Origin: a virus
Length of the DNA stretch: 64,000 bases
IMG/VR virus record: IMGVR_UViG_3300020185_000025
Coordinates: 1-64,000 of that record
Reading direction: 5' to 3' (one strand)
This document shows, one piece after another, positions 2,977 to 47,747 of the stretch (position 1 is its first letter; each line of letters starts with the position of its first letter). Made by a program: the position numbers and the translations under genes. The notes below the pieces were generated by a model, which was given only the letters and a program-made list of their open reading frames with translations, was not told the origin of the DNA and made no database searches.

Positions 2977-3489
2977 TTATTCGCCTTTCAAATATGCAAG
3001 TACAACTTCAGGTTGTGTTTCACCATAAGGATCTGTTCCACAATCATCTTCCATCCCAGGTTCACTAAACATTCTTTCGACAGTACCATCGTCTACGACC
3101 ATAGCGTATCTCCAAGATCTTTTACCGAAACCGAGATTGTCCTTTGCGACTAACATATCCATTCCTGCTGTAAATTCGCAAGATCCGTCGGGAATCAATT
3201 TGATGTTTCTCACTCTCAAATCTTCAGCCCAAGCATTCATTACAAAAGTATCGTTACATGAAATACAATATACTTCATCGACACCAGCTTCTAGAATTTG
3301 ATCGTATAATACATCAAACCCAGGAACTTGGTTGTTAGAACATGTTGGAGTAAATGCACCAGGCAGTGAAAATACAACAACTCTTTTTCCTTTAAAGTAA
3401 TCGTCAGTAGTTGGGTGAACCCATTCAAACTCACCGGTTTCTACGTTTCTACGTCTTTCTTTAAATGTTACATTAGGGACTTGTCTCAT
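2977..3489 (-). CDS. Peroxiredoxin (Prx5/AhpC-TSA type)
   Basis: Thiol peroxidase that would reduce peroxides in the infected cell. The active-site motif PGAFTPTCS is clear, with the peroxidatic Cys in TPTC. The fold continues with VYCISCNDTFVMNAW and the conserved Arg region. The longer frame begins at a TTG (3507), but AGGAAA lies just upstream of ATG 3489, so I place the start there (170 residues). It follows hsp20 on the same strand, separated by a TTCG-loop hairpin. Together with glutaredoxin and Hsp20 it suggests management of stress during infection. Confidence 0.9.
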   Translation of the reverse strand: MRQVPNVTFKERRRNVETGEFEWVHPTTDDYFKGKRVVVFSLPGAFTPTCSNNQVPGFDVLYDQILEAGVDEVYCISCNDTFVMNAWAEDLRVRNIKLIPDGSCEFTAGMDMLVAKDNLGFGKRSWRYAMVVDDGTVERMFSEPGMEDDCGTDPYGETQPEVVLAYLKGE

Positions 3490-3511
3490 AATAAATTTTC
3501 CTATCAATAGT

Positions 3512-3544: not shown

Positions 3545-3997
3545 TTAACCTTTTAAGAATTCTTTCTTAGTGTCAATCTTAATTTTTCTAGCCTTTTTAG
3601 CTTCAGGAATAATTCTTTCCAAAGCAACTGTTAAAAGACCGTTTTTAAAGTTGGCGCCGATTACTTCAATATCGTCTGCAAGAGTAAAACTTCTTGTAAA
3701 CTTCTTGAAAGAAATACCGCGGTGAATGTAATCACCTCCGCCATTGAAGTAATCACCAGCTTCATCCCAAGTGGAACGAATGGTTAATACATCTTCTTTT
3801 ACTTCAATTTCTACATCATTAATATCAAGACCTGCGAGGGCAAGATCAATAAAGAACTCTTCACCTTTTGTGGTTCTGATATTATAAGGCGGGAAGCCTT
3901 GAGATTGATGTACTTGTGGGAACTCCGCTAATCTGTCAAAGACTCTATCGAATCCGACAGCAAAAGGGTGTAGTTGGTTTATGTTTAATCCAGTCAT
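3545..3997 (-). CDS. hsp20: Small heat shock protein (Hsp20/IbpA family)
   Basis: A 150-residue alpha-crystallin-domain chaperone that holds unfolding proteins. The N-terminal HPFAVGFDRVFDRL resembles IbpA. The domain carries LALAGLDINDVEIEVKEDVL and ends with the typical NGLLTVALERIIPE segment, followed by a short Lys-rich tail. Such genes are frequent in marine T4-like phages. The gene has an early-type promoter and a late TATAAATA site upstream, and an 80-100 nt leader whose ribosome site lies in a ROSE-like pairing (see findings). AGGAG 4004-4008 precedes the ATG. Confidence 0.92.
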   Translation of the reverse strand: MTGLNINQLHPFAVGFDRVFDRLAEFPQVHQSQGFPPYNIRTTKGEEFFIDLALAGLDINDVEIEVKEDVLTIRSTWDEAGDYFNGGGDYIHRGISFKKFTRSFTLADDIEVIGANFKNGLLTVALERIIPEAKKARKIKIDTKKEFLKG

Positions 3998-6196: not shown

Positions 6197-6475
6197 TTAA
6201 CCAATAACCTTTTCAGCCAAAGGAGCATCAGGATTTGTTGTGTCAACAGAAACTTCTTCCTCACCAACCCCTTCAGGTTGCTTTGGACCTTTCTGTCTTA
6301 GGAATGCTTCGATTTTATTTCTCAGCATACCTACACCGGCCATCTCTTGTCCTTGGAATCCACCACGCTGTGATACTACATCAATAATTTGTAGCAGCGT
6401 TGACAGATCACTAAGATTGATAACCACTTCTTGTTCCTGGCCTTGGCCATTTTGTGATACGTCATTCATATTCAT
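6197..6475 (-). CDS. Conserved small acidic protein between gp45 and gp44
   Basis: A 92-residue protein, Gln-rich at the N-terminus (QNGQGQEQE), with a helical middle (NLSDLSTLLQIIDVVSQRGG) and an acidic Pro-rich tail. Its ATG touches the gp45 stop codon, so it is translated with the clamp. T4 has RpbA near this place, but no similarity is visible. Function unknown. Confidence 0.7.
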   Translation of the reverse strand: MNMNDVSQNGQGQEQEVVINLSDLSTLLQIIDVVSQRGGFQGQEMAGVGMLRNKIEAFLRQKGPKQPEGVGEEEVSVDTTNPDAPLAEKVIG

Positions 6476-7137
6476 TACCTTTTCTTATAAGTCGACTTTG
6501 AATCTATAGCCACGTAATACGTGACACCTTCGCCTTTAAACTCTGAGATACCTTTTGAACAAAGAGTAACATCATAGTCTATTGGCATTAGTTTCAAGTT
6601 ATCAGTTTTAATGATAATCTTGAACTCATCGGCAGTTTCCCCAATTTCAACGCCAAAGTCATCTGCGTTGTCGTTGGCACTGTCGATTGCTTTCAGATAA
6701 CATTTGCCGCCTTCGCCTACAAATGCAATCTCTGAAAATTGTAATACCCCTGCTGCCTTCAATACAGAAGACAATGTATCCGCCGTCACCGATACTTCAA
6801 CATCTGCTGAAGGAATAGTAATATCCTTTTCAGGTGGAGTATGGATCATGGATAAGTCGGCAAAAACATACTTGGTACGTCTTTTACCTTCTGATATAAT
6901 AAAGTATTTATCAAAAAACTCTACATCAGGATCATTATACAGAGATAAAATTGACAAAAATCTTGATAGATCATAAACACATGCATCAGAAGGGATTTCC
7001 TGTGATATGTTTGCGATCGCAATTAGAGTCTTCTCTGGAGTTATAGTCTTAATTACATTACCTTTTGCCAACAAGATTGACTTGTTGATGGAGGTAAAGC
7101 TTTTTAGGACCGTCAAGGTTTCGTTAGAAAATTTCAT
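6475..7137 (-). CDS. gp45: Sliding clamp gp45
   Basis: Trimeric DNA clamp giving processivity to gp43 and, with gp33/gp55, activating late transcription. The 220-residue length equals that of T4 gp45 (228). The N-terminus MKFSNETLTVLKSFTSINKS, the VYDLSRFLSILSL segment and the C-terminal FKGEGVTYYVAIDSKST correspond to T4 gp45. It has its own early promoter at 7174-7202 and a GGAG ribosome site. Confidence 0.95.
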   Translation of the reverse strand: MKFSNETLTVLKSFTSINKSILLAKGNVIKTITPEKTLIAIANISQEIPSDACVYDLSRFLSILSLYNDPDVEFFDKYFIISEGKRRTKYVFADLSMIHTPPEKDITIPSADVEVSVTADTLSSVLKAAGVLQFSEIAFVGEGGKCYLKAIDSANDNADDFGVEIGETADEFKIIIKTDNLKLMPIDYDVTLCSKGISEFKGEGVTYYVAIDSKSTYKKR

Positions 7138-16580: not shown

Positions 16581-16994
16581 TTATTCTCCTTTTAAGTTTG
16601 GTAGGATACCGTGATTGCCTTCATGAGATGGAGCCGTCCATCCTTCAGGTTTCATCAGATCAGGTAATCCTAGTGGGTTTGGCCTTCCTTCCTTTACTCC
16701 AGGTTCCTTGGCCATGTTTGCTTCGAGAACTGCGTCCCAAGCTTTATAAGGATCGACTCCGAAGGCATCAAGAGTACCGATTGCCACTACACAAAGGTCA
16801 ACTAAACCATCTACGATTTCTTCGGAGTCGATAACTTTTTGGGCTGTTCTTGTTTCGGTTAACTCTTCTTCTAAAAAGTCAACTCGAAAACGCAAGAACG
16901 CCTTCAACTGATTTATATCTGCGTTTTCAATCCAGTCATGTGTTTTATACTTTGACTGCATTTCATTAATGTCTTTAACCCAATCTTTACTCAT
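16581..16994 (-). CDS. MazG-like nucleotide pyrophosphohydrolase
   Basis: A 137-residue all-alpha NTP pyrophosphatase. EEELTE (42-47) and EEIVDGLVD (58-66) form the Mg-binding helices, followed by KAWDAVLEANMAK. I start it at ATG 16994, which has AAGGA 8 nt upstream, rather than ten codons earlier. MazG proteins hydrolyse nucleotides including ppGpp in some reports; in this phage it could also remove dCTP, a job done by gp56 in T4, since no gp56-like gene is seen here. Confidence 0.82.
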   Translation of the reverse strand: MSKDWVKDINEMQSKYKTHDWIENADINQLKAFLRFRVDFLEEELTETRTAQKVIDSEEIVDGLVDLCVVAIGTLDAFGVDPYKAWDAVLEANMAKEPGVKEGRPNPLGLPDLMKPEGWTAPSHEGNHGILPNLKGE

Positions 16995-17298
16995 TTGGAT
17001 ATCCTTGTGAAATATAAACGCCAATCATACCAATTTGGCCTTCTGTTAATTTTTGGGCAGTTGGATACATCATTACTGATTGTGGTCCAACCGGTTCACC
17101 TGCTTTGTATTTTAATAACTTACCAATAATATCATCAGCAGATTGTCCTTGAAGTTTAGGACCGATTCCACCTTGACCTTGTGAACCATGACAGGCAGCA
17201 CAAGTAACCATTGTTGGTCTGATATCAGCGAAACGATCTTCAGCCAATGCGACTGATGTCATTCCTAATAGAGCAGTTGTTAATAAAACGTTCTTCAT
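16987..17298 (-). CDS. Periplasmic c-type cytochrome
   Basis: A 103-residue secreted electron carrier. Residues 1-19 are a signal peptide ending VALA, then a single heme site CAACH (33-37) and likely axial Met in QSVMMYPTAQ (76-77). The rest (QKLTEGQIGMIGVYISQGYP) matches class I cytochromes of the c4/c5/c553 kind found in proteobacteria. Heme attachment would need the host Ccm system. It overlaps glutaredoxin by 4 bp and MazG by 8 bp, so it is an integral operon member. Confidence 0.92.
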   Translation of the reverse strand: MKNVLLTTALLGMTSVALAEDRFADIRPTMVTCAACHGSQGQGGIGPKLQGQSADDIIGKLLKYKAGEPVGPQSVMMYPTAQKLTEGQIGMIGVYISQGYPNE

Positions 17299-24222: not shown

Positions 24223-24705
24223 CTACTTCTTCTTAAGTTTAGTCTCAAAGTCGTCAATAAAGTCATTAATATAATCAGGTAGTTGATTTCCAGTAACTGG
24301 TTCGCCTGACGAATCATGTACTTCGTTGTCCATCATTTGTCTTTGAGAAGCTTTGAATTTAATATACATCTGCTTTTTCTCTTTAGAGATTCGCCTTAAG
24401 AATGCATACCAAATGATTTGCGTAAAATAAGCAAAAGGGTTTTGGGATTTCTCGGGATTGAAGTTATGTATATATTGTAGACAGTTTTCAATGCCATCAG
24501 ATACCATTTCTTCCTTGTACATGTACCCACTGAAATTTGGTCTTGTTGCTAATCGTTGTGCAATTAACATAATACACTTTCCAATGTAATCTGGTACTTG
24601 TGGATTCTTTTCACCACACTCTTCTGCCTCTGCGCATTTTTCTCGATATTCGATTAACGCTGCGAGGAGGTCTTTATTGTTTACGTAGTTTCGTTTCTTA
24701 GCCAT
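24223..24705 (-). CDS. gp55: Late sigma factor gp55
   Basis: A 160-residue sigma-like factor that directs host RNA polymerase to TATAAATA late promoters. The signature NPFAYFTQIIWYAFLRRISK and preceding FSGYMYKEEMVSDGIENCL match gp55 of T4-like phages. Its own early promoter lies at 24741-24769. Confidence 0.95.
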   Translation of the reverse strand: MAKKRNYVNNKDLLAALIEYREKCAEAEECGEKNPQVPDYIGKCIMLIAQRLATRPNFSGYMYKEEMVSDGIENCLQYIHNFNPEKSQNPFAYFTQIIWYAFLRRISKEKKQMYIKFKASQRQMMDNEVHDSSGEPVTGNQLPDYINDFIDDFETKLKKK

Positions 24706-41317: not shown

Positions 41318-41941
41318 ATGAAAAACATATTCGCAGCATTTCTATTAATGCTATCAACAACTGCATTCGCAGACCTCAGTGGTTCAGCCACTATCACAAA
41401 CGATTACGTATGGAGAGGAATGACTCAAGGCGCAGAGAATGCCCTTCAAGTCGGAATCGACTACAACAACGACAAAGGATTTTATATTGGTGCATGGACA
41501 TCAGATGTAGATTTCGGTGGAGAAGTTGACCGTGAAGTGGATCTATATGCAGGGTGGAGTGGAGCTCTTGTAGACGGAGTACTTGATGTAACTGTTGGTT
41601 ATATTAAATACGACTATCAAGGCGATGCTTTTGATTTCGAAGAGTATTTGGTTGGATTCAGTAGTAATGGTTTTACAGTAAACTATTATGATACTGTTGA
41701 TTCAGATACATATACAGTCGAAGCAATCTATGCAGTACCATTTATTACAGTGGTAGATGTTGAACTAATTGGCTATGAGATTGGTGGAGAAGGTACGGAA
41801 GTATTCGGACAATTCCAAGACTCGGTTGGTCTTAGATTAACAAAAGAACTTAATGATAGGTTCTCTGTAGGTTTTAATGTTGGTCAAGATTTAGTGGCTG
41901 ACAGTAATTACTATGCCTTTAGCGTAAGCGCAAGTCTGTAA
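41318..41941 (+). CDS. Outer-membrane porin-like protein (TorF/TIGR02001 type)
   Basis: A 207-residue secreted protein. Residues 1-18 form a signal peptide ending TAFA. The mature part starts DLSGSATITNDYVWRGMTQG and continues GIDYNNDKGFYIGAWTSDVD, the signature of a proteobacterial outer-membrane family (TorF, TIGR02001), with alternating beta strands to the end (YAFSVSASL). An AAGGAG site and a strong terminator frame the gene. It would insert a phage barrel in the host outer membrane: uptake of nutrients or blocking of superinfection are possible roles. Confidence 0.85.
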   Translation: MKNIFAAFLLMLSTTAFADLSGSATITNDYVWRGMTQGAENALQVGIDYNNDKGFYIGAWTSDVDFGGEVDREVDLYAGWSGALVDGVLDVTVGYIKYDYQGDAFDFEEYLVGFSSNGFTVNYYDTVDSDTYTVEAIYAVPFITVVDVELIGYEIGGEGTEVFGQFQDSVGLRLTKELNDRFSVGFNVGQDLVADSNYYAFSVSASL

Positions 41942-41958
41942 TTAGAACCAAATAAATT

Positions 41959-41982
41959 GGGGGACTATATGTCCCCTTTTTT
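41959..41982 (+). terminator. Rho-independent terminator after the porin gene
   Basis: GGGGAC-TATAT-GTCCCC followed by six T. It closes the fibre-porin transcription unit and lies just before the convergent gene at 41981. Confidence 0.9.
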
Positions 41983-42304
41983 ATTTCTTAGAGTAAGCTT
42001 GTGCACCAAAGAAGGCAGCAACAATACCAGCAACTGCTACAAAGTATGTAGGAGCCATTGAACCTAAAGTCTTTTGAGCTTCGTCAAGTCCTACTAACGA
42101 CGCAAGTACTACAGCAAATGGATATAGCAATAATCCACCTAATGCAAACCAAGTCATTTTACGTTGCGCATCTCGCATTGCATCTTGATCGTCGAGTTCT
42201 TTTCTTTTGAACTCTAAATACATTTTCTCTTCTTCCGAAGATACCTTACCGTCACCGTTAGTATCTGCTGGGTGATGTCCTGCTGCTTTTAATTCTTCTT
42301 CCAT
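41981..42304 (-). CDS. EF-hand two-span membrane protein, holin candidate
   Basis: A 107-residue protein: an EF-hand loop DTNGDGKVSSEEE (14-26), a charged linker, then hydrophobic spans at about 50-70 and 85-103. The same architecture recurs in marine T4-like phages and is often suspected of being a holin. It lies in a late-type cluster with a lipase. The calcium loop is unusual for a holin. Holin function is inference. Confidence 0.6.
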   Translation of the reverse strand: MEEELKAAGHHPADTNGDGKVSSEEEKMYLEFKRKELDDQDAMRDAQRKMTWFALGGLLLYPFAVVLASLVGLDEAQKTLGSMAPTYFVAVAGIVAAFFGAQAYSKK

Positions 42305-42647: not shown

Positions 42648-42968
42648 CTATGTTTTGAATTGAACAGAAACACCACACCCACAAGAAGATTCCTCCTGTG
42701 GATTAATAATCTTAAAACTTTCGTTCAGTCCTATTTTAGCCCAATCTAATATTGAGCCATTTAAAAACGGTAATGATTTTTCATCAATTACTATTTTAAA
42801 CTTTCCGTAATCTGTTATAGTATCATCGCTATTAATTTCGTCAGCATAATCAATAACGTACTCCCAGCCAGCGCAGCCGCTAGGAATAATGCCAATCCTA
42901 ATATCGCTAGACGACGATCCTGCCGTTCTTTCAATCGCTTTAGATAGTGCTGCATCTGTGAGCTCCAT
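42648..42968 (-). CDS. A-type iron-sulfur carrier (IscA/ErpA/HesB family)
   Basis: A 106-residue protein with the three conserved Cys of A-type carriers: C32 in SGCAGWEY and C96/C98 in SSCGCGVSVQF. It would deliver Fe-S clusters to client proteins. Homologues occur in some marine phages. It overlaps the upstream gene by 1 bp and sits 64 codons from the lipase. Together with heme oxygenase and cytochrome c it points to iron handling during infection. Confidence 0.88.
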   Translation of the reverse strand: MELTDAALSKAIERTAGSSSSDIRIGIIPSGCAGWEYVIDYADEINSDDTITDYGKFKIVIDEKSLPFLNGSILDWAKIGLNESFKIINPQEESSCGCGVSVQFKT

Positions 42969-43342
42969 TACTTTTTGCGCTTCTTCTCAATTTTATCCAA
43001 TCTTATATTGATATCGTCAATTAAATTTTTCAACTCTGATGCTCCACCTGGTTCAATAGGTTTATGAGCAATTGATTCCATGAATTTAATTCTGGTTTCT
43101 AGCTCGTCAATCTTTCCTGTGATACGTGGATACTTTTTTCTCCATGCGTCAGGATCAGTTTGTAACCAAGTCCATCCCCATCTTACCGCTAAGTATTCCA
43201 AGAAAGAATCAAATTTACCAACAGCCCATAGAGCCATCCTTGTATCTTTAAACCAAAACAAGAATCCTGCACCGGCGATTGAACCTAAAATTGCTGTGTA
43301 GATCCATAGAGTATCGTCCGTTAGTCTCTCTAAAAGTTCCAT
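42968..43342 (-). CDS. Membrane-anchored coiled-coil protein
   Basis: A 124-residue protein with one N-terminal span (about 13-31), a Trp-rich middle (VRWGWTWLQTDPDAWRKK) and a C-terminal coiled coil. It overlaps the lipase stop by 1 bp. A spanin-like or lysis role is possible but unproven. Confidence 0.55.
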   Translation of the reverse strand: MELLERLTDDTLWIYTAILGSIAGAGFLFWFKDTRMALWAVGKFDSFLEYLAVRWGWTWLQTDPDAWRKKYPRITGKIDELETRIKFMESIAHKPIEPGGASELKNLIDDINIRLDKIEKKRKK

Positions 43343-44088
43343 TAGTTATCCTTTGTATATTTTGTATAGTTATCCATTGAGTGGTCAGAAAGGCCGTCAA
43401 AAGGCTTTAATTGAATCCACGAAGTAGCAATTCCTCGTAGTTTATCTTTTAACTTTCTCCACCAAGCAAGGTTTTTGATAATCCCATTATAGTTAAAATA
43501 CATAACTTGGCCGTGATGTCGATAACCCATAAACCAAGGTGGTATAACAGTTACGAGGTCATTGTTATTTACAAAACGATAATGTTCAAGATCAGCACAC
43601 TCCTTTACGAATGCAGCATTACCAACTCTTGGTGATCCAAATGTATATAGAACGGGTTTGCGTTTAAGTAATCTCGAAGCAGCAATTGTTGCCATTGCTC
43701 CACCTAATGAATGACCGCATATAGAAATATGTTTTGTGGCATGCTTTGAAAGTACTTTCAGAACATCGTCCCAGATATCATCTATTTCGTTTTGGAATCC
43801 ATTATGTACCCAACCACCAACCTGAGCTTTATCAGGCCAAATGTTGAGATCTGCTTTAAGATCATTGAGTTCGGTAGGTTCTGTACCACGGCAGCATAGA
43901 ACAAACTCTTCTTTGTTCCATACACAATGAGCTTGTGCACCGTCATGGTCAATAAACTTATGACCGGTATAACCTAATTTTTTGAAGATAGGCTTTGCTG
44001 TTTTACCATCTTCGTAGGCAATCTTTGCCATTTCAGCGAATTTAATCGCCTCACTTTTTACATCACAAAATTGTACTTTCTGTTTCAT
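43342..44088 (-). CDS. Class 3 lipase
   Basis: A 248-residue alpha/beta hydrolase of the Lipase_3 family. The nucleophile Ser lies in CGHSLGGAMAT, a conserved FGSPRVGN follows, then NNDLVTVIPP with the acid residue and DHSMDNYTKY with the His. I start at ATG 44088 (AGGAG upstream). No signal peptide is seen. Late control (44129-44136) and the membrane-protein neighbours suggest a role in lysis or envelope damage; lipid scavenging is an alternative. Confidence 0.88.
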   Translation of the reverse strand: MKQKVQFCDVKSEAIKFAEMAKIAYEDGKTAKPIFKKLGYTGHKFIDHDGAQAHCVWNKEEFVLCCRGTEPTELNDLKADLNIWPDKAQVGGWVHNGFQNEIDDIWDDVLKVLSKHATKHISICGHSLGGAMATIAASRLLKRKPVLYTFGSPRVGNAAFVKECADLEHYRFVNNNDLVTVIPPWFMGYRHHGQVMYFNYNGIIKNLAWWRKLKDKLRGIATSWIQLKPFDGLSDHSMDNYTKYTKDN

Positions 44089-44128
44089 GTGGTCTCCTAT
44101 TGAGATATATACAATTAAGTTCAACAAT

Positions 44129-44136
44129 TATTTATA
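44129..44136 (-). promoter_or_regulatory. Late promoter for the lipase/membrane cluster
   Basis: TATAAATA on the minus strand. It overlaps the plus-strand late promoter by 4 bp within the palindrome TATTTATAAATA. Confidence 0.65.
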
Positions 44137-44140
44137 AATA
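44133..44140 (+). promoter_or_regulatory. Late promoter for heme oxygenase-PcyX
   Basis: TATAAATA on the plus strand, 38 bp before the heme oxygenase ATG, sharing bases with the divergent site. Confidence 0.65.
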
Positions 44141-44178: not shown

Positions 44179-44802
44179 ATGTCAAACAATCTAAAAGAAT
44201 TAACTCGCCAACACCACGATAACGCAGAAAGAACAGAATTCGCAGAAATGCTACTATCGGGCAATATCAGCCCAAAACTATACCAAGAATATTTACACGC
44301 GCAATTACAAAACTATATGGTTTTAGAATCAGCCGTTGAAGTGCCTATGGAATTAGAACCTATATTTAGGTCAACATCAATTGAAGAAGACTTACAAGAA
44401 TTAGAAAACACGTTTGATCTTGAAGAAATTGAAGATAACTTCGAGTCAACATTAGAATATAATAAACATATACTAACTTTACTCGAGGAGGGTAATAATG
44501 AAGGTCTTCTTGCTCATCTATATGTGCGTCATTTTGGAGATGCTCATGGCGGACAAATCATCAAAAGAAACGTACCTGGGTCGGGTCTTATGTATGAATT
44601 CGAGAATAGAGCCGAACTTATTAAAAGCGTAAGAGAACTATTACACGACGGAATGGCTGACGAAGCAATGATTTGCTTTGAGTACGCAGAAAGATTATTT
44701 CATGAACTCATGGAAAATTATAGAAACAACGCTGAGAACTACGAACCTGAAGATTATGCAAGAGCAAGAACAATGGATGCGTGGGACGAAGATGATAGTT
44801 GA
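44179..44802 (+). CDS. ho1: Heme oxygenase
   Basis: A 207-residue enzyme cleaving heme to biliverdin, CO and iron. The proximal His is H13 in LTRQHHDNAERTEF, and the distal helix reads FGDAHGGQIIKRNVPG, as in HO-1. The C-terminal part is acidic. Overlap of 11 bp with the bilin reductase gene argues for coupled translation and channelling of biliverdin. Confidence 0.94.
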   Translation: MSNNLKELTRQHHDNAERTEFAEMLLSGNISPKLYQEYLHAQLQNYMVLESAVEVPMELEPIFRSTSIEEDLQELENTFDLEEIEDNFESTLEYNKHILTLLEEGNNEGLLAHLYVRHFGDAHGGQIIKRNVPGSGLMYEFENRAELIKSVRELLHDGMADEAMICFEYAERLFHELMENYRNNAENYEPEDYARARTMDAWDEDDS

Positions 44803-45493
44803 TTCGCCACTCTTTGACCAATTAAGAAAACTTGCTTCAACGTTAATTAACGATTTCGATTCAACGATGGAACGCGTTGAGAATAAGAAACACGTTGCTG
44901 ATCTAAATGGATGGAAGGATTACTTCTGGCATAGTAAGGAAATTCGTAAAGCCCATCTTAAGACAATTGAACCTGTAGGTAAGAACAAGTTATGGTTAAT
45001 GCATATCAATATCTTTCCGCGTGAAGGAGTTGATATACCTATCTTTGGTTTAGATATTGTTGCGAATCCAAAAAAGATTAGTGGTTGCTTTTGTGACTAC
45101 TCTCCAATTGATGAACTACAAAAACCCGACACTCATCCTTATATGATTAAGTTCAGAACAGCAACTGAAAATCTAGAATGGAAGAAAGAAAGAGTAATGC
45201 CTGACTGGGCGTTAGAGATCTTTTCGGAAAACATTGTAGGTGCTGGTGCAATTCGCGATGGAGAAGAAACCGAACAGTTAATTAACATGGCTTTAGAACT
45301 CTCAAGGTTCTACACAATGGAGATGGGCAATCCTCAATACAAAACTAGATGGATTAATACTCTCGAACGACAGAACAAGTATTGTGCAAAACAAAAGCTC
45401 AACCGAATGCTTCATAGTTCAATTTTGGCAATGGGAATTTCAGAGGAACGTAAGAATCAGTATGTAGAGAATGTCTTATTTGAAGAGATCTAG
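44792..45493 (+). CDS. pcyX: Ferredoxin-dependent bilin reductase (PcyX-like)
   Basis: A 233-residue member of the PcyA/PebS family reducing biliverdin with electrons from ferredoxin. IFPREGVDIPIFGLDIVANP and CFCDYSP align with the PcyA core; the Asp of CDYSP (D102) corresponds to the catalytic Asp105. PDWALEIFSEN and the end YCAKQKLNRML...VLFEE match the PcyA C-terminus. I start at ATG 44792. PcyX, described from uncultured oceanic viruses, makes phycoerythrobilin; whether this protein makes the same product cannot be read from sequence. Confidence 0.9.
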   Translation: MIVDSPLFDQLRKLASTLINDFDSTMERVENKKHVADLNGWKDYFWHSKEIRKAHLKTIEPVGKNKLWLMHINIFPREGVDIPIFGLDIVANPKKISGCFCDYSPIDELQKPDTHPYMIKFRTATENLEWKKERVMPDWALEIFSENIVGAGAIRDGEETEQLINMALELSRFYTMEMGNPQYKTRWINTLERQNKYCAKQKLNRMLHSSILAMGISEERKNQYVENVLFEEI

Positions 45494-45914: not shown

Positions 45915-45958
45915 ACAAGGTATACATGACAAAAAAAGATTCTAAGGAAAACACTGAT

Positions 45959-46201
45959 ATGTCCGTTGTCGCTCTAACACCAGATAAAATACACCACGAA
46001 ATATCTCATCATATTTCAAAAGGAGTACCGTACATCGATGCTCTATGCCACTTCGCTGATAAGAATGGTATTGAAATTGAAACGATTGCACAAATCGTAA
46101 AGAAGAGTTCTGTACTGAAAGAAAAGATACGGACTGAAGCAGTTGACTTGAGAATGGTGAAAAAAGAAGATGAACAAGATATCACAGACTTTAGTAAGTG
46201 A
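45959..46201 (+). CDS. gp33: Late transcription co-activator gp33
   Basis: An 80-residue protein linking the clamp to RNA polymerase at late promoters. KIHHEISHHISKGVPYIDAL and KNGIEIETIAQIVKKSSVL fit marine gp33 proteins, and the order 33-59-32 is as in T4. The frame begins at ATG 45926, but the predicted transcript starts at about 45921 and AAGGA lies before ATG 45959, which I prefer. The C-terminus DITDFSK is a plausible clamp-binding tail. Confidence 0.75.
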   Translation: MSVVALTPDKIHHEISHHISKGVPYIDALCHFADKNGIEIETIAQIVKKSSVLKEKIRTEAVDLRMVKKEDEQDITDFSK

Positions 46202-46775
46202 TGATTCGTTTAATACATACGTAAAATTTCTGGCATTAAAGAAACATTTTACAACGGACAATTACGATTACTTCAAATATAATGGAAAGGTACGAGCAAA
46301 CTTTGATACCTTTATGTCGCGAAACGATGCATATTCGTTCGCAAAATTATCGAAAAAAGAGGACCCACAAGGTCTAATTTTGAGTAATCTTTTAATAAAT
46401 AAAAACATCTGGGTTCGAGATTTACTCGACAGTGAAGGAGAAGCCAGATACACGAATTGGAGGAAGAGGGTAGAATCATTAGGTTATATCTTCAAATCCG
46501 AGCTTGCTCATCTTAATGATGAATACAAGCGAAACTTTATATCAATAGATGGACAACATCCTTTGGTAATGACTCTGTTATTACAGAAGAAGATTAGTTT
46601 GGAAACATTTACTATTCTTTCTCATCAAGCGAATATATTTTCGTATTGGCAAGAAAAAGTAGTTGACAAACACGTATCTTTTGATATAATAAACAAATCG
46701 CGAAAGTATAAACCCTTTCTCGATTTTGAGCCGAAGCGATTCCAAAAGTTAATTAAGGATCACTTTGGTATTTAA
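46170..46775 (+). CDS. gp59: gp59 helicase loader
   Basis: A 201-residue protein that loads gp41 helicase on forks. LALKKHFTTDNYDYFKYNGK, then MSRNDAYSFAKLSKK, match gp59 (T4: 217). It starts inside gp33 (32-bp overlap). A promoter within its 3' part (46663) serves gp32. Confidence 0.88.
   Translation: MNKISQTLVSDDSFNTYVKFLALKKHFTTDNYDYFKYNGKVRANFDTFMSRNDAYSFAKLSKKEDPQGLILSNLLINKNIWVRDLLDSEGEARYTNWRKRVESLGYIFKSELAHLNDEYKRNFISIDGQHPLVMTLLLQKKISLETFTILSHQANIFSYWQEKVVDKHVSFDIINKSRKYKPFLDFEPKRFQKLIKDHFGI
46663..46690 (+). promoter_or_regulatory. Internal promoter for gp32
   Basis: TTGACA, 16 bp, TATAAT inside the gp59 gene; the only consensus site in the window with a 16-bp spacer. Confidence 0.6.
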
Positions 46776-46820
46776 TAAAATACTACGCAATATAACGCTA
46801 TATATAAAGGAGAACTAATT

Positions 46821-47747
46821 ATGGCACTAACAGACTTTTCTTCACTCAAGAAGAACCGTTCGAAGACTCTCGACAAGTTGAATTCACAACTCGAAAAGAT
46901 TTCTTCAAAATCATATCAAGACCCTAACGCAGGGAAATTCTGGAAACCTACAAGAGATAAGGCAGGAAATGGCTTCGCAGTCATTCGATTCCTACCAGCC
47001 TCTAAAGGTGAAGAGATGCCTTTCGTAAGGATTTGGGATCATGGATTCCAAGGTCCTACAGGTCTTTGGTATATCGAAAACTCTTTAACAACATTGAACC
47101 AGGATGATCCTGTATCAGAGTTTAATTCTAAACTTTGGAACAGTGGTGTTGAGTCAGACAAGGAACAAGCACGTAAACAGAAGCGTAGGCTGAAGTATAC
47201 TGCTAATATTATTGTCGTTAAAGACCCAGCAAATCCTGAGAATGAAGGTAAAGTATTCATGTATCAGTTTGGTAAAAAGATCTTTGATAAGTTGAATGAT
47301 TTAATGAATCCAACTTTTGAAGATGAAGAACCAACCAATCCGTTTGATCTATGGGAAGGTGCAAACTTTCGTTTAAAGATCAGACAGTTTGAAGGTTATC
47401 CAAACTACGATAAATCTGAATTTGATCCTGCGTCTCCATTGTCTGATGACGATGCTGAGTTGGAAAGAATTTGGGGAGAACAACATTCTCTACAGGAATT
47501 GGTATCTGAAAGTAACTTCAAAACTTACACAGAACTGAAAACTAAATTGTATCGTGTACTTGATCTACAAAATGATGAACCGACTGCTTCTGCACCGGTA
47601 ACTGAAACGGCTGACGAATTGGATTTATCCGATATGTCTAATGATACTTCTGAACCGGTTATGGCAACTGCCGAACCATCAGTAGGATCAACCGCAAGTG
47701 ATGATGATGATGACCTTAGTATATTTAAGGAATTGGCACGTAGTTAA
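46821..47747 (+). CDS. gp32: Single-stranded DNA-binding protein gp32
   Basis: A 308-residue protein (T4: 301) coating single-stranded DNA. The N-terminal LKKNRSKTLDKLNSQLEK is the cooperative-binding part, the core includes FAVIRFLPASKGEEMPFVRI, and the C-terminus is acidic (DDDDDLSIFKELARS), as needed for partner binding. The zinc ligands of T4 gp32 are absent: WYIENSLTTLNQDDPV has no Cys. AAGGAG precedes the ATG. Confidence 0.95.
   Translation: MALTDFSSLKKNRSKTLDKLNSQLEKISSKSYQDPNAGKFWKPTRDKAGNGFAVIRFLPASKGEEMPFVRIWDHGFQGPTGLWYIENSLTTLNQDDPVSEFNSKLWNSGVESDKEQARKQKRRLKYTANIIVVKDPANPENEGKVFMYQFGKKIFDKLNDLMNPTFEDEEPTNPFDLWEGANFRLKIRQFEGYPNYDKSEFDPASPLSDDDAELERIWGEQHSLQELVSESNFKTYTELKTKLYRVLDLQNDEPTASAPVTETADELDLSDMSNDTSEPVMATAEPSVGSTASDDDDDLSIFKELARS

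Follow-up and report, generated by a model that had tools for sequence, protein, structure and literature searches.

Heme oxygenase (HO) and a ferredoxin-dependent bilin reductase (FDBR) are encoded in tandem on the plus strand of the window, which is the whole 64,000-nucleotide stretch analyzed here and corresponds to bases 1-64000 of a virus record that is itself a fragment of 88,997 bp. The HO gene (44179..44802, ATG at 44179, 207 aa) matches the Pfam Heme_oxygenase profile (PF01126) with 72.7 bits against a cut-off of 23, and its product carries the proximal His (H13) and the distal helix motif GDAHGGQ, of the form G-D-x-x-G-G, both of which are present in 44 of 44 relatives. A His in this motif replaces the Ser of GDLSGGQ (HO-2 and Pelagibacter phage Mosig), which may tune the heme pocket. 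The FDBR gene (44792..45493, ATG at 44792, 233 aa) matches Fe_bilin_red (PF05996) with 66.2 bits, above the curated cut-off of 31, and contains the PcyA-family motifs DIPIFGLDIV, CDYSP, and YCAKQ..N. The HO stop at 44802 and the FDBR start codon at 44792 create an 11-bp overlap, and both reading frames are intact. These motifs and the overlap had been described in an earlier note on this DNA, whose interpretation of the pair as an HO-FDBR bilin operon is supported by the family assignments and intact frames. In the seven closest relatives checked, the two genes likewise share 11 bp; in nine others the overlap shrinks to 1-8 bp. Relatives L109, L184, and L186 have an insert between HO and FDBR that is a homologue of the protein encoded at 67059-67406 of the record. 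Both genes are maintained by purifying selection because dN/dS is low wherever computable: 0.04-0.08 for HO and 0.10-0.17 for FDBR against relatives, in pairs with unsaturated synonymous change. Loss of function of the pair is ruled out by the same values.

The active site of the reductase departs from that of known bilin reductases at one position. Catalysis by PcyA depends critically on Glu76, His88, and Asp105, and reduction of the 18-vinyl group requires Glu76 (PMC10151467). Asp55 is named as the PcyX-specific catalytic residue in PMC11480375; the equivalence of PcyA Glu76 and PcyX Asp55 is read from alignments. When aligned with PcyA, the window FDBR has Lys57 at this position and retains H71 (PcyA H88), D88 (D105), R134 (R149), and N204 (N219), with D88, the central catalytic Asp, being invariant in both alignments checked. 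Lys57 is found in 55 of the 55 close relative loci read first, in remoter relatives with as little as about 50% identity, and in 43 of 43 readable HO-FDBR cassettes. In an 84-sequence alignment, the residue is Lys in all 32 members of the Lys clade and Glu in all 17 cyanobacterial and cyanophage PcyA sequences, and the other phage FDBRs contain Asp (23), Glu (8), Ser (2), Asn (1), or Cys (1). Further natural variants are the phage FDBRs of L202, L203, L212, and L223, in which this position is occupied by Asn, Cys, or Ser. The Lys clade is also marked by Asn73 (PcyA Val90), Leu87 (Cys104), Cys101, and Met206 (Lys221), the PcyA numbering of these columns being taken from alignments.

The AlphaFold2 model of the FDBR has a mean pLDDT of 92.3 and a pTM of 0.90, and it resembles PcyA (Z 25.6, 220 residues) and PcyX 5OWG (Z 22.4, rmsd 1.6 Å over 176 residues). 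By profile and by its predicted fold, the protein is thus an FDBR, in which Lys57 would, judging by alignment, be placed in the active-site pocket. It scores 98.5 bits against the PcyA equivalog NF002760, for which the cut-off is 206. In the FDBR tree, which took in no alphaproteobacterial PcyA, the Lys clade sits on a long stem with 100/100 support, apart from the Asp clade (96/91) containing Mosig and 5OWG, and the two clades are nested in one viral clade (100/99). Support for the Lys clade is still 100 after column 57 is dropped.

The Lys-type reductase lineage is common. Among 2.9 million viral contigs, 73 FDBR loci with 63-100% identity were recovered, and a wider scan gave at least 580 relatives. 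No FDBR relatives were found in the plasmids scanned, and in one scan of bacterial genomes the only matches were cyanobacterial PcyA-like proteins (24-32%), with no cellular donor seen. For both proteins, the nearest named phage is Mosig (FDBR 31%, HO 37%), described in PMC11480375 as an isolated phage carrying hemO and a PcyX-like gene. The gene order HO, FDBR, gp33, gp59, gp32, UvsX, gp41 is kept across Lys-clade loci, within contig reach, and the position of gp33 downstream of the cassette is identical in all those examined. In the window, the gp59 helicase loader and the gp32 single-strand binding protein (phrog_269 and phrog_224) occupy 46170..47747 on the plus strand. The divergent group in these loci comprises IscA and small membrane proteins, joined in some of them by a lipase. 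Its members on the minus strand of the window include an IscA/SufA-type Fe-S assembly protein (42648..42968, TIGR00049 88.9 bits) and a class 3 lipase (43342..44127, probable ATG at 44088, PF01764 83.9 bits), the latter being found in only part of the relatives. A small membrane protein at 41981-42304, which contains the EF-hand-like stretch DTNGDGKVSSEE and has no family match, lies beside the cassette in most relatives. Elsewhere in the window, a peroxiredoxin (2977-3507) and an Hsp20 protein (3545-3997) are encoded; genes for peroxiredoxin and for small heat-shock proteins also appear in the annotations of Mosig and C48C1.

Between the lipase and HO genes lies the palindrome TATTTATAAATA (44129..44140), which comprises two overlapping T4-type late elements, one directed toward HO on the plus strand and the other toward the lipase on the minus strand. 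The element upstream of HO, TATAAATA, occupies 44133-44140. In the window, this octamer is about as frequent as chance predicts (8 copies against 8.7 expected), but its placement is biased: of the 14 copies in the 89-kb record, 12 precede a same-strand gene start by no more than 100 bp, the top count among 56 octamer permutations, for which the mean share is 19%. All 44 relatives compared have the palindrome in front of HO, at a distance of 38-47 bp from the start codon; since these relatives include near-identical contigs and are not independent, 19 diverged HO upstream regions serve as a better measure, and TATTTATAAATA is the sole long invariant block in their alignment. It is also invariant where the divergent gene is not a lipase. 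None of 10 loci with an Asp-, Glu-, or other-type reductase has the octamer in the 1 kb preceding FDBR, and no other late element of the record extends to the palindrome.

As in T4-type late promoters, where it lies at approximately -10, the octamer stands just 5' of genes, as indicated by the position statistics and by conservation. Relatives of the corresponding transcription proteins are encoded as well: a gp55-like late sigma factor (24223..24705, minus strand, phrog_234 E 5.6e-64), a gp33-like late-transcription coactivator directly 3' of the cassette (45926..46201, plus strand, PF16805 and phrog_254), and a gp45-like sliding clamp (6475..7137, minus strand, phrog_223 E 6.7e-69). Unlike T4-type late promoters, the HO element is a perfect 12-bp palindrome that faces both directions; a two-way promoter at this site is plausible. 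The late promoter proposed in the earlier note is therefore borne out more strongly than first claimed, by position and conservation and not by count, and the HO-FDBR pair would probably be expressed late. The accompanying description of a full T4-like genome holds as to its T4-like character but not its completeness, the record being a fragment.

5-Aminolevulinate synthase (AlaS) is encoded beyond the window, at record positions 74502-75704 (L002:11502-12704), where it matches TIGR01821 with 553.1 bits against a cut-off of 338.6. The gene lies 29 kb downstream of the cassette and directly follows ribonucleotide-reductase-like genes, whose names come from inspection of the sequence and from similarity to those of Mosig. 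AlaS occupies the same place in two relatives (84% and 79%), G024 (L225) and G020 (L228), and most others are too short; it is lacking in G022, a 37-kb relative that would be expected to reach the site. In named phages, the AlaS search gave weak matches only (29-35%), of which the annotated ones are bioF- or kbl-like. Near AlaS are genes for serine hydroxymethyltransferase (record 78568-79728) and an IscU-type Fe-S scaffold (79925-80368). Glycine is the substrate of AlaS, and the former enzyme could supply it.

With regard to the host, the earlier note had pointed to a porin and a cytochrome of proteobacterial type, and both genes are indeed present. The putative porin (41318..41941, plus strand) belongs to the TorF family (TIGR02001 83.3 bits, cut-off 47), which none of 194 cyanobacterial genomes contains and which was recovered from a Caulobacter control. 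The cytochrome is a small secreted c-type protein with a CAACH motif (16987-17298, PF00034) encoded beside a glutaredoxin-like gene. The Lys-clade relative L181 contains a permuted tmRNA (247-513) with the tag ANDDVYTEDFALAA; the tags of ten Synechococcaceae permuted tmRNAs are quite different, of the type ANNIVRFSRQ-APVAA, and that of Mosig is GEDNFALAA. A permuted tmRNA by itself was dropped as a host clue, since Synechococcaceae also have one and the tag alone differs; permuted tmRNAs also occur in Mosig and in the records G032, G039, and G043, which have other FDBR types. The polymerase forms a group (100/99) with phage C48C1, whose host is unknown, outside the cyanophages and Mosig, and UvsX has its nearest match in a Synechococcus elongatus phage, with cyanophages among the best matches of both proteins. 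No phycobilisome-family gene was found in the record or in nine relatives, all of them fragments. Given the TorF porin and the relative's tmRNA tag, a proteobacterium appears to be the better bet as host, and the suggestion that the host probably has no phycobilisomes is upheld by the distribution of TorF and by the search for phycobilisome-family genes.

Several features relate this cassette to known systems. It is similar to the Mosig hemO-pcyX cassette (PcyX_EBK42635, PDB 5OWG) in the overlapping HO/FDBR tandem and the fold of the reductase, but differs in having Lys in place of Asp55 and its own late element at HO; moreover, it is located beside gp33/gp59/gp32, whereas that of Mosig is placed before the neck genes. 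Mosig also has a Fer2 ferredoxin, and none was found above the cut-off in the window record or in the nine fragmentary relatives. With cyanobacterial and cyanophage PcyA, the window protein shares the fold and the equivalents of His88, Asp105, Arg149, and Asn219, but Glu76 is replaced by Lys. As in the valaS-hemO-pcyA/X phages, including the freshwater phage CB_2, described in PMC11480375, AlaS, HO, and FDBR occur together with AlaS set apart in a "broken cassette"; the presence of AlaS in the same record places the phage among these valaS/hemO/FDBR phages. According to that source, the FDBR of CB_2 is a true PcyA that makes phycocyanobilin, in contrast to the Lys-type enzyme. The three-gene association of AlaS, HO, and FDBR in phages was thus already described in 2024 (PMC11480375), and a Lys-type reductase lineage finds no mention in the passages of that work consulted. 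What the present analysis adds is a viral FDBR lineage, common and strictly conserved, that has Lys at a product-linked position and its own conserved late promoter.

The product of the reductase can be narrowed down to some extent. Phycocyanobilin is unlikely because 18-vinyl reduction needs Glu76, which is Lys57 here. Phycoerythrobilin would be possible but is not predicted, and it is not to be assumed because Asp55 is missing; the pink bilin expected in the earlier note is, for the same reason, not supported. For PebA, which converts biliverdin to 15,16-dihydrobiliverdin, the central Asp alone is essential (PMC6755814), pre-PcyA proteins that lack Glu76 yield phytochromobilin and, in a single instance, phycoerythrobilin (PMC10151467), and FDBR products are not reliably predictable from sequence (PMC13193486).

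The interpretation that we consider somewhat more probable than its negation is a late-expressed two-gene pigment operon in which a Lys-type FDBR makes a bilin other than phycocyanobilin, with AlaS feeding heme synthesis earlier. For enzyme activity, product, order of expression, and bilin use, we infer the following course. From a late promoter dependent on gp55, gp33, and gp45, phage HO would be produced and open heme, expected at the alpha position for this family, to biliverdin, releasing Fe2+ and CO. The translationally coupled FDBR would then reduce biliverdin; the electrons would come from host ferredoxin or flavodoxin, since no Fer2 ferredoxin was found in the record or the nine relatives. 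Lys57 would replace the second active-site acid, with protonation still proceeding through Asp88 and His71 and the 18-vinyl group left unreduced. A first guess at the product is 15,16-dihydrobiliverdin or phycoerythrobilin and a second guess is phytochromobilin. Because of its location after the ribonucleotide-reductase genes, AlaS would probably be expressed earlier and feed heme synthesis before heme is opened late. Alternatively, a Lys in the pocket could lower FDBR activity or divert the enzyme to another use. A bolder version of the proposal, put forward only tentatively, is that the Lys clade constitutes a further FDBR class unique to these phages, whose active site, tuned by Lys, would give a bilin that neither PcyA nor PcyX makes (e.g. 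by stopping at 15,16-dihydrobiliverdin, or as a different isomer) late in infection of a non-photosynthetic proteobacterium.

A rival reading is that the enzyme is an ordinary PcyX, making phycoerythrobilin by four-electron reduction of biliverdin and simply tolerating Lys. Among PDB sequences, PcyX 5owg matches the window FDBR best (E 1e-26, compared with about 1e-11 for PcyA), the FDBR has an HO gene in tandem as in Mosig, and the HO itself is closest to that of Mosig. However, the catalytic Asp55 of PcyX (so designated in PMC11480375), which is retained in Mosig and 5owg, is Lys in every clade member, and the group-specific N73, L87, C101, and M206 together with the position outside the clade of characterized PcyX proteins set the lineage apart. 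This possibility is accordingly judged unlikely, and the assignment of the reductase to PcyX in the earlier note is not supported. A role of the pair in supplying phycobilisomes, as in cyanophages, is very improbable: although cyanophages are among the best matches of the polymerase and UvsX, the polymerase pairs with C48C1 and not within cyanophages, the TorF family is missing from the cyanobacterial genomes surveyed, and the tmRNA tag of L181 is unlike those of Synechococcaceae.

Other explanations concern the purpose of heme opening and not the type of reductase. HO might free iron late for Fe-S proteins, with the FDBR only clearing biliverdin, a doubtful but not negligible explanation that is consistent with IscA beside the palindrome, IscU in the record, the failure to find any bilin-binding phycobilisome-family protein, and the discussion of iron supply for such phages in PMC11480375. 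Nevertheless, several relatives without IscA and lipase at the cassette retain HO, FDBR, and the palindrome, and iron release needs no dedicated, strongly conserved FDBR. Quite unlikely, in our estimation, is that the bilin serves as chromophore of a host photoreceptor, such as a phytochrome or a bilin-binding globin, through which the phage alters light signaling in a heterotrophic or phototrophic proteobacterium. The hemO-pcyA-alaS genes of Bradyrhizobium ORS278 adjoin a phytochrome gene (PMC11480375), and bilin-binding globins accompany pre-PcyA genes (PMC10151467), but the record itself showed no photoreceptor gene.

Phage bilin genes in phycobilisome-free hosts are called enigmatic in PMC11480375. 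A common, conserved lineage with an altered product-linked residue constitutes a natural test of product choice in FDBRs. In addition, an own late promoter combined with a separate AlaS gene implies a testable timing, in which heme synthesis would be fed first and heme opened late.
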